Assembly: GCF_000373145.1 (NCBI RefSeq)
Contig: NZ_KB890603.1
Coordinates: 1 to 64,000 of the forward strand
From: Thermus oshimai DSM 12092
GTDB taxonomy: Bacteria; Deinococcota; Deinococci; Deinococcales; Thermaceae
Direction of reading: 5' to 3'
DNA length: 64,000 nucleotides
Both the position numbers and the translations under genes were made by a program. Of this stretch, positions 8,335 through 15,772 are shown in pieces. A model generated the notes under the pieces. That model ran no database searches. It was not told the origin of the DNA and saw only the letters and a program-made list of their open reading frames with translations. The first letter of the stretch is position 1. Each line of letters starts with the position of its first letter.

Positions 8335-9476
8335 CCCGCATCTTCCGCAAAGAGCTTTTGCAGGTGTTCCGGGACCGGAAGCTCGTCTTCTCCACCCTGG
8401 TGCTTCCCGTGCTCCTGATGCCGGTCTTTGCCTTTGGCCCCACCCTCTTCTTCTCCCGCATCCTGGAGCGAAGCGCAAAGGAGGTGCAGGAGGTGGCGGC
8501 GCGGGGGCTTCCCCAAGAGGCCCTCCAGGCCCTTGAGGCCCAGGGGCTCAAGCCCGTGCCCGTGGAGGACCCAAGGGGGGCGGTGGAGAAGGGGGCCTAC
8601 CCCGCGGGGGTGGAGTACGGAGGGGGGGCCTACCGGGTCTACGGCCGCCTGGCCGGGGGGCCCGGGGAGGGCCAGGTGGCGGTGGGGAAGGTGGAAAAGG
8701 CCCTGGCCCTTTTGAAGGAGGAGGCGGTGGCCGAAGCCCTAAAGGCCAAGGGGGTGCCCCTGGAGGTCCTCACCCCCTTCCGGGTGGAGGTGGTGGACGC
8801 TTCCCCGGAGAGGGAGCGGGCCGCGGGGCTTCTCGGCTTCCTCCTCCCCTTCTTCCTGGTGATCTTCATCCTCTCGGGGGGGCAGGTGGTGGCGGTGGAC
8901 GCCACCGCCGGGGAGAAGGAGAAGGGCACCCTCGAGGCCCTCCTCTCTGCCCCCGTGCCCCTCCCCCACCTGGCCCTAGGCAAGGCCCTGGCCACGGTGG
9001 CCATGGCCCTCCTCTCGGGCTCCGCCGGGCTTTTGGGCCTGGCCTTGGGGGGGCTCTTAAGCGGAAGGCTGGAAGGGGCGATGGAGCTAGGGGGGCGGGT
9101 GGCCCTGACGGGCGGGGAGTTTCTGGCCCTCTTCGTCACCGGCTTCCTCCTGGCCCTCTTCATGGGGGCGGTGATGGTGGCCCTGGGGCTTTACGCCCGG
9201 AGCTTCAAGGAGGCCCAAAGCTACATGGCCCCCCTGCAGCTCCTCGTCCTCTTCCCCCTGCTCTTCCTCCAGTTCAGGGGCTTTTTCACCCTCGAGGCCT
9301 GGCACCACCTCGTCCCCGTGCTCAACGTGGCCCTCCTCATGGACGGGCTCTTCCGGGGGCAGGCGGAGCCCTTGAGCCTGGCCCTCACCTGGGGCTCCAC
9401 CCTGGTGTACGCGGCCCTGGCCTTCCTCCTGGCGGTGGGGGTCTTCCGCCGGGAGGAGGTGGTGTTCCGAAACTGA
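8322..9476 (+). CDS. ABC-2 type transporter permease (NatB-like)
   Basis: A 384-aa permease partner of the preceding ATPase. One N-terminal membrane helix ([17 protein letters not shown]) is followed by a large extracytoplasmic loop (about residues 65-180) and a C-terminal group of about five helices starting [18 protein letters not shown]. The conserved ABC-2 segment [17 protein letters not shown] lies after the second helix. This topology matches NatB-like permeases. The ATG at 8322 was chosen because it is preceded by GGAAGG and gives the family N-terminus [16 protein letters not shown]. Confidence 0.88.
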
Positions 9477-9486
9477 AGGAGGCGGT

Positions 9487-10347
9487 ATGGAGATCAAAGA
9501 GGTTCGGGCGTGGCGGACCAGCGGCTTTTTGGGGTTAGGGGCTCTCCTCCTCGGGCTTTTCTGGGCGGGGTGGGCCCTGAAGGAGGGGTCGGCGGAGCGC
9601 GAGGCGCTTTATCTTTTTCACCTCATCGGGGGCCTCCTCCTCGCGGGCCTCGCCGGGGCGGGGCTCATCACCGTCCAGCCCAACGAGGCCCGGGTCCTGA
9701 CCTTCCTGGGGCGGTACGTGGGGAGCGTGCGGGAGGCGGGGTTCCACTACGTGAACCCCTTCACGGTGAAAAAGCGGGTCTCCTTGAGGGTGCACAACTT
9801 CAACTCCGACCGGCTCAAGGTGAACGACGCCCACGGCAACCCCATTGAGATCGCCGCGGTGGTGGCCTGGCGGGTGGTGGACTCGGCCAAGGCCCTCTTC
9901 CAGGTGGAGGACTACGCCAGCTTCGTGGCCATCCAGTCCGAAACCGCCCTAAGGGCCCTGGCGAGCCGTTACCCCTACGACGGGGAGGAGAAGTCCTTAA
10001 GGGGCAACCCCGAGGAGCTGGCGGAGGAGCTAAAGGGAGAGGTGGAAGCGCGGCTCAAGGTGGCGGGGGTGGAGGTCTTGGAGGCCCGGCTCACCCACCT
10101 GGCCTACGCCCCCGAGGTGGCCCAGGCCATGCTCCGCCGCCAGCAGGCCCAGGCGGTGGTGGCCGCCCGGAAGCTCATCGTGGAGGCCGCGGTGGGGATG
10201 GTGAAGGAGGCCCTTATGGGCCTCGAGGCCGAGGGCATCGCCCTGGACGAGGAACGAAAAGCGGCCATGGTGAACAACCTCATGGTGGCCCTGGTCTCCG
10301 AGGCCCAGGCCCAGCCGGTGATCAACGCCGGCACCCTTTACACCTGA
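9487..10347 (+). CDS. SPFH/band-7 domain membrane protein
   Basis: A 286-aa protein with two N-terminal hydrophobic segments (residues 12-60), then an SPFH/band-7 domain from about residue 68 ([17 protein letters not shown]) containing [19 protein letters not shown], and a C-terminal helical stretch rich in A, E and K. Members form oligomeric membrane scaffolds like stomatin or HflK/C. The start follows GGAGGCGGT. Its stop codon shares one base with the start of a small ribbon-helix-helix gene, so the two are coupled. No associated protease gene is visible. Confidence 0.9.
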
Positions 10348-10532
10348 TGGGCGAAAGGGGGCGGGAAAAGAAAGCCTTCTTGCTCCGGCTGGACCCCAGG
10401 CTCTACCGGGTTCTGGAGAAGTGGGCCCAGGACGAGCTGAGGAGCGTGAACGCCCAGATCGAATACCTCCTGAAGGAGGCCGCGAAGCGGGCGGGGCGTT
10501 GGAAGGATGCGGATGAACCCCAGGAACCCTAG
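10347..10532 (+). CDS. Ribbon-helix-helix (Arc/MetJ-type) small protein
   Basis: A 61-aa protein. [38 protein letters not shown] fits the Arc-type fold: a beta strand with basic residues followed by two helices, with the [10 protein letters not shown] second helix conserved in Arc-type proteins. It starts within the stop of the SPFH gene (TGATG), which suggests a functional link. It could autoregulate the pair or bind elsewhere; nothing shows which. Confidence 0.75.
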
Positions 10533-10559
10533 GCCCCTCCTCGCCTGGAAGGAGACACG

Positions 10560-11375
10560 ATGAAAGCGCTCTACTGGACCTTCGGCCTCTCCTGGTCTTT
10601 GGCCCTTCTCTTCTGGCTTTGGGGTGGGGGGGTGGGCACCCCCGCCTACATCGCCTTCAGCGCAGCCTACATGTGGGTTCCGGGCCTGGTGGCCCTCTAC
10701 TTCAGCAGGAAGGAGGGGCTCCGCCTGCCCCTCGCCCTCAAGCCCAACCGCCACTGGCTCTTCGCCTGGCTCTTCCCCGTGGGGCTCACCCTCTTTTCCA
10801 TCCCCTTAACCCTTCCCCTCGCCCCCTGGCGGGGGGCAGAGGCCCTGAAGGCCACCCTCCCCAAAGAAGCCCTGGCCATCCCCGAAGGCGCCCTCCTCTG
10901 GATGGCGTTCTTGGGGGGCATCCTGGGGGGGCTCCTGGCAGGGGCCACGGTGAACCTCCTCTTCGCCCTGGGGGAGGAGCTCATGTGGCGGGGGTACCTG
11001 TGGGCGCGTTTAAAGCCCAAAGGGTTCTGGCCCGCCTCTTTGGAAATCGGCCTCGTCTGGGGGCTCTGGCACGCCCCCCTCGTTCTCATGGGGCACAACT
11101 ACCCGAACACCCCCATCCTGGGCGTGGGGGCCATGACCCTCTTCACCCTCCTCCTCACCCCCGCCCTCCTCTACGTCCGGGAAAAGGGGGGAAGCCTTCT
11201 CGCCCCGGCCCTCCTCCACGGAACCTTAAACGGGGTGGCGGGGCTTTCCCTCCTCCCCTTTGAAAGGACCCACGACCTCCTGGTGGGGGTCCTGGGCCTG
11301 CCCGGGTTCTTCCTCCTGGCCCTTTTCAACCTTTGGTTGAGGCGGAGCGTTGACAGGGAGGGCGCAGGCCCCTAG
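10560..11375 (+). CDS. CPBP-family intramembrane glutamic protease
   Basis: A 271-aa polytopic protein with about seven hydrophobic segments. The CPBP/Abi signature is clear: motif 1 ALGEELMWRGYLW (EExxxR), motif 2 GLVWGLWHAP (the FxxxH-like histidine) and motif 3 LLHGTLNG (HxxxN/B). Relatives are CAAX-type proteases or bacteriocin-immunity proteins; the substrate is unknown. The ATG is preceded by GGAAGGAG. The downstream lysJ promoter -35 lies inside the last codons of this gene. Confidence 0.88.
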   Translation: MKALYWTFGLSWSLALLFWLWGGGVGTPAYIAFSAAYMWVPGLVALYFSRKEGLRLPLALKPNRHWLFAWLFPVGLTLFSIPLTLPLAPWRGAEALKATLPKEALAIPEGALLWMAFLGGILGGLLAGATVNLLFALGEELMWRGYLWARLKPKGFWPASLEIGLVWGLWHAPLVLMGHNYPNTPILGVGAMTLFTLLLTPALLYVREKGGSLLAPALLHGTLNGVAGLSLLPFERTHDLLVGVLGLPGFFLLALFNLWLRRSVDREGAGP

Positions 11376-11378
11376 GCT
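11350..11378 (+). promoter_or_regulatory. Promoter of the lysJ operon
   Basis: A near-consensus -35 TTGACA (11350-11355) and -10 TAGGCT (11373-11378) are separated by exactly 17 bases. The predicted start of transcription near 11385 leaves a leader of about 90 bases before lysJ. Confidence 0.75.
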
Positions 11379-11386
11379 TAGAGGAG

Positions 11387-11460
11387 ATGAGCGCCCGGGG
11401 CAAAACCTAGAGCCCGCCTGGGAAGCCGAAGCTTCCCGGGCAGGCCCCGGGGCTTTTCTT
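11387..11460 (+). promoter_or_regulatory. Possible attenuator: 7-residue leader ORF plus alternative hairpins before lysJ
   Basis: A mini-ORF (11387-11410) encodes MSARGKT, with an Arg and a Lys codon, starting at or just after the predicted transcript start. It is followed by a strong stem GGGAAGC/GCTTCCC closed by CGAA (11416-11441), and an overlapping CCCGGG-CAGGC-CCCGGG stem (11435-11451) ending in TTTTCTTT. The two stems share bases and are mutually exclusive, as in a transcription attenuator. Confidence 0.45.
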
Positions 11461-11474
11461 TATAGGGAGGGGCC

Positions 11475-12659
11475 ATGAACGTCACCCTGGAGAACTGGCG
11501 GGCGCTTCTTGAGGCGGAAAAGGAGCTGGACACCGGGGTCTACACCAAGCACGACCTTCTCCTGGTGCGGGGGGAAGGGGCTAAGGTGTGGGATGCGGAG
11601 GGGAACGAGTACATAGACTGCGTGGGGGGGTACGGGGTGGCCAACCTGGGCCACAGCAACCCCGAGGTGGTGGAGGCGGTGAAGCGCCAGGCCGAGCTCC
11701 TCCTCTCCATGCCCCAAACCCTGCCCACCCCCACCCGGGGGGAGTTCTACCGCACCCTGGTCTCCATCCTGCCCCCCGAGCTCAACCGGGTCTTCCCGGT
11801 GAACTCGGGCACGGAGGCCAACGAGGCCGCCCTCAAGTTCGCCCGGGCCTACACGGGAAGGAAGAAGTTCGTGGCCGCCATGCGGGGCTTCTCGGGCAGG
11901 ACCATGGGGAGCCTCTCCGTCACCTGGGAGCCCAAGTACCGGGAGCCTTTTATGCCCCTGGTGGAGCCCGTGGAGTTCATCCCCTACAACGATGTGGAGG
12001 CCCTGGAAAGGGCGGTGGACGGGGAGACGGCCGCGGTGATCCTGGAGCCCGTCCAGGGGGAAGGGGGGGTGCGCCCCGCCACCTTGGAGTTCCTAAAGGC
12101 GGCCCGGGAGATCACCCAAGAGCGGGGGGCCCTCCTCATCCTGGACGAGATCCAGACCGGCATGGGGCGCACCGGGCGGCGCTTCGCCTTTGAGCACTAC
12201 GGCATCGTGCCCGACATCCTCACCCTGGCCAAGGCCCTAGGGGGCGGGGTGCCCCTGGGGGCTGCGGTGATGCGGGCGGAGGTGGCCCAGGCCATGCCCA
12301 AGGGCGGGCACGGCACCACCTTCGGGGGGAACCCCCTGGCCATGGCCGCGGGGGTGGCCGCCATTCGCTACCTGGAGCGCACCCGGCTTTGGGAACGGGC
12401 GGCGGAGCTTGGGCCCTGGTTTATGGACGAGCTCCGCAAGATCCCCTCCCCCAAGATCCGGGAGGTGCGGGGCCTGGGGCTCATGGTGGGCCTCGAGCTC
12501 AAGGAGAAGGCCGCCCCCTACATTGAGCGCCTGGAGAAGGAGCACCGGGTCCTCACCCTGCAGGCGGGGCCCACGGTCATCCGCTTCCTCCCCCCGCTGG
12601 TGATAGAGAGGGAAGACCTGGCGCGGGTGGTGGAGGCGGTGCGGGCGGTGCTAAGCTAA
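11475..12659 (+). CDS. lysJ: LysW-gamma-L-lysine/ornithine aminotransferase (LysJ)
   Basis: A 394-aa PLP-dependent class III aminotransferase of the LysW carrier-protein (alpha-aminoadipate) lysine pathway. It converts LysW-bound aminoadipate semialdehyde to LysW-lysine, and may also act in the ornithine branch. Visible features are the PLP phosphate contact [15 protein letters not shown], the aspartate motif [14 protein letters not shown] and the Schiff-base lysine in [13 protein letters not shown]. The protein is very similar from end to end to recalled T. thermophilus LysJ. The ATG follows GGGAGGGG. Confidence 0.95.
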
Positions 12660-12663
12660 GAAG

Positions 12664-12863
12664 ATGAGGCGCCGCTACCGGGTCCTTTTGGAAAGGGACG
12701 AAGAAGGCTATCTGGTGGCCCACGTGCCCGAACTCCAGGCCCACACCCAGGCAAAGAGCTGGGAAGAGCTCCTAAAGCGGTTGGAGGAGGCGGTGGCCGT
12801 CTCCTTGGACGAGGAAAACATTCAGCTTTTGGGCCTGGAAGGGGAGCTGGTGATCGAAGCGGC

Positions 12864-12867
<4 letters not shown>
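12664..12867 (+). CDS. hicB: HicB-family antitoxin
   Basis: A 67-aa protein with the HicB N-terminal partial RNase-H-like fold: YRVLLERDEEGYLVAHVPELQAHTQAKSWEELLKRLEEAV, with the usual strand-strand-helix order. There is no obvious C-terminal DNA-binding extension, so it is a short HicB. It lies 4 bases after lysJ, and its TGA overlaps the GTG of hicA. In this family HicB neutralises the HicA ribonuclease. Confidence 0.85.
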
Positions 12868-14139
<1,272 letters not shown>

Positions 14140-14179
14140 ATGCCCCTCCTTCCGCCCCGACCTCGGCTAAACTGAGGCC

Positions 14180-15772
14180 GTGGGGTTTATTTTGGCTTTC
14201 TTGGTTGTTCTGGGATTCCTGGGCTTATTCCCGCCCACCGCCCCCTTCAGCGAGCTCTGGGTGGAGCCCCTGGTGGCCCTCCTGGCGGGGGGGTACCTCC
14301 TGCGCCACAGGGCTCCGGTCTGGGGCGGGGCCGTGCTCGGGTTCGGCCTGGGGGACCTCCTATGGAGCCTGGAAGAACTCCGAGGAGAGGAGGGGAACCC
14401 CCTCTTGGAGCTCCCCTACTTTCTGGGGTACGCCCTCCTCACCCTGGCCCTTTTAAGCCTGCCGGGAAAGCCTGTCCGGTGCACCCGGGCCCTCCTGCCC
14501 CTGGCCTTGGGGGGCCTTTACGGGGCCATGGTCCCTGGGGGGGTGGACCGGGTGTACGCCCTCTGGGACGCCCTCCTCCTCCTCCTCTTCCTGCCCCGGG
14601 CGGAACGGCTCCTCCAGGAGATGAACCTCAAGGAGGCCCTGGTCCTGGTGGGGCTCCTCCTCTTCCTGGTGGCCGATCTGGCCTACGTGGTCCTGGAGGC
14701 CCAAGGGGGGTACCCCACGGGCCACCCCGTGCACCTCCTATGGGGTCTGGCCTACCTCTTCTTCGCCCTGGGGCTTGGGCCTGTGGCCCTCCCGTCCTTC
14801 CTGGGACCGGGGCTGGCCTTCTTCGGGGTTTGGGCCATGCCGGCCACCCTCCTGGGAGACCCTAGCCCCTTAGGCCTCCGCCTCCTGGCCCTGTACGGGG
14901 CCTTGGTGGGGGGGCTTGGCCTCCTCTACGCGGGCTACCTAGAGAGGAAGCGGATTACCGCGCGGCAGGCGCGCTGGGGGCATTTCCTGGAACGCCTGAA
15001 CCGCCTAAGCCCCCGGGTCACCCAGACCCTGAGCCCGGAGGCCCTCCTCCTGGAGGCCCTGGAGGCGGCCCGGGAGCTCTGGCCGGAGGCGGTGGGCCTC
15101 GAGGTGCGGGCCCGCCGGGGGCTGGTGGGGGAAAGGACCCCCCACGCGGTGCCCATCCCCATGAACGGGGACGCGGCCTTCCTCTACTTCCAAACCCCCT
15201 CCGCCGAGGACTTCCCCGGGGCCTTGGCCCTTCTCGGGGAACGGATCCGCCAGGTGCTCCGGCAGATGGAATGGGGGGCCATGGCCCTCCAAGACCCCCT
15301 CACCGGCCTCTGGAACCGGCGGGGCCTGGAGCTGGAGCTCCCCAAGCTTCTGGCCCTGGCCTCGCGCTACGCCGCCCCGGTGAGCGTGGCCTTTTTGGAC
15401 ATCGACCGCTTCAAAAGCGTGAACGACGCCTACGGCCACCCCGTGGGGGACGAGGTCCTGAGGCGGCTTGGAGCCATCGTCCAGGCCAGCGTCCGCCGGG
15501 AGGACCTGGCCGTGCGCTATGGGGGGGAGGAGTTCCTCCTGGTCCTCTACGGGGCAGACCTGGAGGCCGCCCGGGAGGTGGTGGAGCGGATCCGCGCCCG
15601 CTTTAGGGGGGAGGCCATCCCCCCCATCCCCCACCCCCTCACCCTCTCCGCGGGGGTGGCCGGGGGAAAGGTGCCGAAGAGCCTGGAGGAGCTGGAGGAC
15701 TGGATCCTGAAGGCCGACTTCGCCCTTCTCAGGGCCAAGGAAGCGGGGCGGAACCGGGTGACCTTCGCCTAA
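14180..15772 (+). CDS. Membrane-bound diguanylate cyclase (GGDEF)
   Basis: A 530-aa protein. About eight hydrophobic segments occupy residues 1-255 (an uncharacterised membrane sensor), a linker of about 100 residues follows, and a GGDEF domain covers about 365-530. The active site is GGEEF, with the substrate motif DIDRFKSVNDAYGHPVGDEVL upstream. An RxxD inhibitory site (RRED) sits five residues before GGEEF, so the enzyme should be feedback-inhibited by c-di-GMP. GTG start. It acts alone; no EAL or PilZ neighbour. Confidence 0.93.
   Translation: MGFILAFLVVLGFLGLFPPTAPFSELWVEPLVALLAGGYLLRHRAPVWGGAVLGFGLGDLLWSLEELRGEEGNPLLELPYFLGYALLTLALLSLPGKPVRCTRALLPLALGGLYGAMVPGGVDRVYALWDALLLLLFLPRAERLLQEMNLKEALVLVGLLLFLVADLAYVVLEAQGGYPTGHPVHLLWGLAYLFFALGLGPVALPSFLGPGLAFFGVWAMPATLLGDPSPLGLRLLALYGALVGGLGLLYAGYLERKRITARQARWGHFLERLNRLSPRVTQTLSPEALLLEALEAARELWPEAVGLEVRARRGLVGERTPHAVPIPMNGDAAFLYFQTPSAEDFPGALALLGERIRQVLRQMEWGAMALQDPLTGLWNRRGLELELPKLLALASRYAAPVSVAFLDIDRFKSVNDAYGHPVGDEVLRRLGAIVQASVRREDLAVRYGGEEFLLVLYGADLEAAREVVERIRARFRGEAIPPIPHPLTLSAGVAGGKVPKSLEELEDWILKADFALLRAKEAGRNRVTFA

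Follow-up and report, generated by a model that had tools for sequence, protein, structure and literature searches.

A probable lysine-sensing transcription attenuator ahead of lysJ in Thermus

Results

The lysJ locus and its leader

The window analyzed here is a 64,000-nucleotide stretch of the Thermus oshimai DSM 12092 genome. It contains lysJ and lysK, which NCBIfam assigns to the LysW-dependent lysine pathway, separated by a hicBA pair whose hicA gene overlaps the start of lysK (Table 1). Just upstream of lysJ and on the same strand is the gene for a CPBP-type membrane protease (10560-11375), a neighbor that differs from those in other Thermus genomes and whose end overlaps the promoter described below. 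The leader open reading frame (ORF) and the hairpins lie between the end of this gene and the start of lysJ at 11475, and only 75 nt lie from the ATG of the ORF to the end of the T run.

Table 1. Features of the lysJ leader and the genes behind it (positions in the window; n = 26 Thermus leaders).
Feature	Position	Strand	Evidence or remarks
-35 element TTGACA	11350-11355	+	exact TTGACA; same in 26/26 leaders
-10 element TAGGCT, TANNNT type	11373-11378	+	TACCCT 19, TAGGCT 3, TAGCCT 3, TACTCT 1
Predicted leader ORF MSARGKT, then stop	11387-11410	+	7 sense codons in 26/26, AAA in 26/26
Variable linker, stop codon to hairpin 1	11411-11415	+	3-5 nt in Thermus, identity 0.47
Segment 2, 5' arm of antiterminator hairpin (hairpin 1)	11416-11426	+	sequence
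Segment 3 GCTTCCCGGGC, common to antiterminator and terminator	11431-11441	+	invariant in 26/26
Terminator hairpin (hairpin 2)	11434-11452	+	terminator-like, 7 pairs, 6 G-C
T run TTTTCTTT	11454-11461	+	sequence, just before lysJ
lysJ, [LysW]-aminoadipate semialdehyde transaminase	11475-12659	+	NF042418 780 bits, cut-off 700
Short HicB-like antitoxin candidate, 67 aa	12664-12867	+	PF15919 13.5 bits, below cut-off 27; adjoins hicA
HicA toxin	12864-13103	+	PF07927 76.5 bits, cut-off 27
lysK, [LysW]-lysine hydrolase	13075-14139	+	NF003367 477.9 bits, cut-off 363

The putative promoter consists of a perfect TTGACA and the hexamer TAGGCT, separated by a spacer of 17 nt. The first-pass annotation had called it a consensus promoter. 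This description is correct for the -35 element but not for the -10 element, which agrees with TATAAT at only three of six bases, and a sigma-70 scan of positions 9000-15000 reported no promoter. TAGGCT does fit TANNNT, a -10 motif that PMC12340547 reports to serve leaderless genes of Deinococcus-Thermus as a promoter adjoining the start codon. All 26 Thermus leaders described below have TA..CT at this position. The ATG at 11387 begins 8 nt past the -10 element, and the gap is 7-9 nt in every one of the 26, placing TANNNT directly before the start codon and suggesting a leaderless start. Judged by this arrangement, the leader ORF is probably leaderless. Its codons are ATG AGC GCC CGG GGC AAA ACC TAG, with the Lys codon at 11402-11404 and the stop codon at 11408-11410.

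Downstream of the ORF, segments 2 and 3 can pair to form hairpin 1 (11 bp, spanning 11416-11441), and the terminator hairpin pairs 11434-11440 with 11446-11452. Because both hairpins need 11434-11440, they are mutually exclusive. Thus, two further elements of the first-pass annotation, an ORF MSARGKT with Arg and Lys codons right behind the promoter and two exclusive GC stems of which the second ends in TTTTCTTT, were confirmed in the sequence. Terminator-like sites were not more common here than in shuffled sequences (4 observed vs 6.3 expected), so that, taken alone, the pattern would be weak evidence. The window leader had a fold z-score of -3.04, and 1 of 200 shuffles was equally stable.

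Conservation of the leader in Thermus

A DNA search of 27 Thermus genomes gave a match just ahead of lysJ or at its start in every one. The complete leader layout was present ahead of lysJ in 26 of them (22 distinct sequences, related to one another, so that the counts given here are not independent events). Conservation of the leader and stems in other Thermus, which the first-pass annotation had named as a check, was therefore borne out. In the remaining genome (G010; locus L027, also L065/L127), the leader is absent and the promoter lies directly ahead of lysJ.

The ORF has no insertions or deletions in these leaders, and 1-2 nt indels occur right behind it. Every leader retains a stop codon, which is TGA in 16, TAA in eight and TAG in two. 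All 26 have AAA as codon 6, and this is the single Lys codon of each leader; AAA is uncommon among Lys codons (87 of 628 in 50 long ORFs of the window). Codon 4 is CGG in 18 leaders, CGC in one and TGG in seven, i.e., Arg in 19 and Trp in seven. A stop that is kept in three spellings, a fixed ORF length next to an indel-bearing linker, and an invariant AAA codon together point to translation of the ORF and to a role for lysine.

Mean pairwise identity was 0.86 within the ORF, 0.99 and 1.00 for the arms of hairpin 1, and 0.79 for the 3' part of the terminator. It was lower outside these parts (0.40 upstream of the -35 element, 0.49 between the two promoter elements, 0.47 across the linker and 0.49 downstream of the terminator) and was 0.71 in the loop. 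For comparison, a 60-base stretch of lysJ starting at the ENW motif had identities of 0.87, 0.90, and 0.74 at codon positions 1-3. Nine of the 11 pairs of hairpin 1 are invariant, and because this hairpin hardly varies, it offers no proof by covariation.

A covariance model built from the 26 leaders (R1) found no further strong copy in 50 genomes of the family: all 26 leaders scored at least 79 bits, and the next match scored 27.4 bits. A strict pattern scan of a named contig collection returned 10 stretches, all from Thermus; T. thermophilus was not among them, the scan may omit records near the window, and absence elsewhere rests on the strict pattern only.

Predicted effect of ribosome position on the fold

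We modeled the effect of a ribosome on the fold by keeping all bases unpaired through the end of a 12-nt footprint that begins with the A-site codon, and counted a hairpin as formed above 0.5. At 70°C, with the AAA codon in the A site, hairpin 1 formed in 23 of 26 leaders and the terminator in one. When the stop codon occupied the A site, hairpin 1 formed in none and the terminator in 25; the exception was L002, in which the terminator stayed below 0.5. In free RNA, hairpin 1 formed in all 26 and the terminator in none. The corresponding numbers of leaders with hairpin 1 and with terminator at 37°C were 26 and 1 (AAA), 1 and 25 (stop), and 26 and 0 (free RNA).

The outcome depended on the size of the footprint. 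At 70°C, footprints of 10-13 nt worked best: AAA kept hairpin 1 in 20-26 leaders and the stop codon gave the terminator in 22-25. With 15-16 nt blocked, AAA also gave the terminator in 16-22 of 26, and with 8 nt blocked, the stop codon gave the terminator in only 5. In the model, the 6-nt step from the Lys codon to the stop codon would thus be about the length that decides the fold. We also scored the difference between the AAA and stop positions against shuffled sequences. At 70°C, 18 of the 22 distinct leaders passed vs 134 of 2200 shuffles, and at 37°C, 15 of 22 passed vs 166 of 2200. The score of the window leader went from 0.22 to 0.90 at 70°C, which passes, and from 0.33 to 0.41 at 37°C, which is barely a switch and does not pass.

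In this simple model, a stall at codon 4 also freed hairpin 1. Since any stall at or before AAA would do so, the modeled folds by themselves do not single out an amino acid.

Leaders of hcs and of lysJ in other genera

hcs encodes homocitrate synthase, an enzyme of the same pathway. In T. thermophilus, the hcs leader of the main lysine cluster was reportedly shown in 2005 to be a lysine attenuator. We could read a leader ORF ahead of hcs in 26 of 27 Thermus loci. It has 14 codons, MLA(R/L/F)xKKLGRRG(V/L/A)G followed by a stop, with AAA AAA at codons 6-7 in all 26; 25 begin with MLA and one with MPA, and one has LRRGGAG. The lysJ and hcs leaders share the pathway of the downstream gene, the promoter type (TTGACA, TA..CT), a short ORF with invariant AAA Lys codons, and an antiterminator that is exclusive with a terminator directly ahead of the gene. 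They differ in that the hcs ORF has 14 codons and a tandem AAA AAA and the 5' arm of its antiterminator lies within the end of the ORF, whereas the lysJ ORF has seven codons and one AAA and the arm begins 3-5 nt past the stop.

Longer leader ORFs with Lys and Arg codons lie ahead of lysJ in three other genera of Thermales. In two sister genera (2/2 genomes each), the same promoter type is followed by a 14-codon ORF, encoding MFASSRKPMQREVG and MFASSRKPVQREVG in one and MLPRSRKPRHRGLG and MLPRSRKPRHRGSG in the other, each followed by a stop. A genus of another family of Thermales has MK(A/V/T)(L/W)KPRKPEVRGKP-stop and a hairpin ahead of lysJ in all five genomes fetched (L110-L114; G059-G062, G064). 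The Thermus variants MAVRGKT-stop and MAARRKP-stop resemble the RGKP-stop and RKP parts of these longer leaders. Judging from such short strings (tail RGKT-stop vs EVRGKP-stop), the ORF of Thermus may have arisen by shortening of an ancestral leader. We folded four of the longer leaders, those of hcs in G000 and of lysJ at L061, L070 and L110. The switch was clear for hcs and L061, incomplete for L070 and almost absent for L110 at 60°C; the L070 and L110 leaders retained most of the terminator even with a stall at Lys.

One genome of a further genus (G049; L087/L126) has kept TACCCTGAAGGGGA but has no ORF or hairpins, and lysJ lies directly behind the -10 element. Because the promoter occurs without the attenuator there and in G010, the attenuator appears to be a separable module. 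In these two genomes, the attenuator may have been lost naturally or may simply be absent, and lysJ may be constitutive. Among deeper relatives with a LysJ match, no comparable leader was found, by eye or with the promoter-ORF pattern, at the two loci of G050 or in G051, G052, G053, G055, G057, G058, G065, G067, G069, G070 and G071, nor ahead of lysJ of G032 and G038. G063, G068, G082, G083, G095 and G096 lay outside this check.

Discussion

A lysine attenuator ahead of lysJ

We consider it probable that the region ahead of lysJ is a ribosome-mediated transcription attenuator that senses lysine through charged tRNA-Lys. The features expected of an attenuator are present: a predicted short ORF, conserved in 26 of 27 genomes, with an invariant codon for the end-product amino acid; exclusive antiterminator and terminator hairpins, the latter followed by a T run; a fold that, in the computation, flips with the position of the ribosome; and downstream genes whose products make the amino acid that would be sensed. 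Several points weigh against the proposal: the single Lys codon, the near-invariance of hairpin 1, the preference of free RNA for hairpin 1, the dependence of the modeled flip on footprint, the weak switch of the window leader at 37°C, the behavior of L002, L070 and L110, and the lack of the leader in G010. The analysis shows the anatomy, the conservation, the retention of the ORF as an ORF, and a computed flip between two ribosome positions. From these we infer where the transcript starts, that ribosomes load there and stall, and that termination responds to lysine.

Transcription would start at the ATG at 11387 or 1-2 nt ahead of it, and a ribosome would load on the leaderless 5' end and translate MSARGKT. 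When lysine is plentiful, the ribosome would reach the stop codon and cover segment 2, leaving segment 3 to pair downstream, and the terminator would halt RNA polymerase ahead of lysJ. When lysine is scarce, the ribosome would wait at AAA, 6 nt upstream of the stop codon, and hairpin 1 would form and sequester segment 3. With hairpin 1 formed, lysJ, hicBA where present, and lysK would be transcribed.

In a trp-type attenuator, a protecting 1:2 hairpin causes untranslated RNA to terminate. We saw no such effect in the model: hairpin 1 wins in all free RNA, and untranslated RNA would therefore read through, unlike that of trp. One tentative possibility, which we regard as doubtful, is that the lysJ leader is a minimal three-segment attenuator with a leaderless ORF of seven codons and a single Lys codon as its sensor, and that its default state in the absence of translation is on. 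If so, it would report both lysine and the capacity of the cell to start leaderless translation.

Alternative explanations

The first-pass annotation had proposed that starvation for Lys or Arg shifts the fold. The lysine part is supported by the invariant AAA; the arginine part is poorly supported, with Trp at codon 4 in seven of 26 leaders. Enzymes for Lys and Arg overlap in Thermus, and an attenuator that responds chiefly to arginine, or to both amino acids together, would be consistent with the Arg codon in 19 of 26 leaders, with the Arg codons next to Lys in the lysJ leaders of sister genera and in the hcs leaders, and with the release of hairpin 1 by a stall at codon 4, which leaves room for an arginine effect. 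However, 11 of 26 hcs leaders carry Leu or Phe at codon 4, and the AAA codons are invariant in the lysJ and hcs leaders alike. We prefer lysine because AAA never varies and codon 4 does, and we rejected arginine as the main signal on the same ground, retaining it as an unlikely rival.

A protein or a metabolite, such as ArgR or a lysine ligand, could switch the hairpins, with the ORF only aiding expression or being incidental. In T. thermophilus, ArgR binds the promoter that serves the main lysine cluster, and free RNA of the lysJ leaders strongly prefers a single fold, both of which would suit such a mechanism. We nevertheless think it very unlikely: an incidental ORF would not be expected to keep its stop while TGA, TAA and TAG interchange, the loop (0.71) and linker (0.47) vary, and the leader matched no Rfam family at gathering score. 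It is similarly improbable that a constitutive partial terminator or an mRNA-stabilizing hairpin lies here, with the leader ORF boosting lysJ and no sensing of lysine. A role in re-initiation has been proposed for short leader genes that lie near a gene (PMC4833913), with a peak at a distance of 10-11 bp for these and at least 40 bp for attenuators. The stop of the lysJ leader ORF is 64 nt from lysJ, and an arrangement of this kind has no need for a pair of exclusive hairpins or for a rare Lys codon that never varies.

In the window alone, where a gene on the same strand ends at 11375 just ahead of the leader, the hairpin might be taken for the terminator of that gene and the small ORF for a chance occurrence. 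This explanation is contradicted by synteny, and we give it almost no weight. Elsewhere, the long ORF closest to the leader usually lies on the other strand, yet the hairpins are still there, as are the conserved ORF and AAA. Upstream of lysJ at most of them is a divergent gene, whose start, read by eye, is FolK-like (AYV(G/A)LG) in 17 of 27 loci; its identity as HPPK was confirmed by Pfam at one locus.

Relation to known systems

The classical amino-acid attenuators are the trp, his, thr, phe, and ilv leaders of Enterobacteria. As proposed for lysJ, the position of the ribosome within the leader ORF decides whether the antiterminator or the terminator forms. The lysJ leader differs in having no clear protecting 1:2 hairpin, a single sensing codon, and a probably leaderless ORF. 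A leaderless leader peptide is exemplified by trpL of Sinorhizobium meliloti, whose ORF likewise probably begins at the 5' end of the transcript, but which concerns another amino acid, another phylum, and another layout of hairpins. Like the lysine riboswitch (L box) and the T boxes, the lysJ leader is an RNA ahead of a gene that would control amino-acid synthesis; unlike them, it is very short and scores below the Rfam gathering scores. An Rfam scan of the leader returned no family at gathering score, the lysine riboswitch included, and only two sub-threshold matches to lncRNAs.

The kind of switch is thus known, and the hcs example has reportedly been published; in the searchable literature, we found no paper on a lysJ leader, its 7-codon and probably leaderless ORF, or its genus-wide conservation. 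The lysJ leader would be a second, genus-wide lysine attenuator besides that of hcs, so that both halves of the LysW-dependent lysine pathway, which lie apart, would respond to one signal. It is small, lies in a tractable thermophile and has natural deletions (G010, G049), making the coupling of leaderless translation to transcription at 70°C easily testable.

The hicBA pair

The first-pass annotation had assigned the attenuator to lysJ-hicBA-lysK. A leader-peptide attenuator for lysJ is well supported by the 26/27 conservation, the kept ORF and AAA, and the computed switch, and the assignment extends to lysK; the corollary for HicBA is weak. hicBA lies directly behind lysJ in only eight of 27 Thermus genomes (G000, G003, G006, G014, G016, G017, G020, G026), with lysK behind it in the five whose locus extends that far, and in the other 19, lysK directly follows lysJ. 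The leader occurs in all eight genomes with hicBA and in 18 of the 19 without it. The device therefore belongs to lysJ-lysK, with hicBA as a passenger, and we rejected HicBA as the reason for it. Co-regulation of hicBA in the eight genomes would follow from the operon layout.

Some loci have irregular gene matches. Two overlapping hicA matches at 2857-3079 of L067 (G014) suggest a frameshift in the genome or the assembly. The lysJ match is split in two at L003, L009, L018, L022, and L008 (G016, G003, G024, G007 and G020, respectively), suggesting frameshifts that are either real or due to sequencing. The HicB candidate of the window has only 67 aa, and it may lack the DNA-binding part and depend on the lys promoter.
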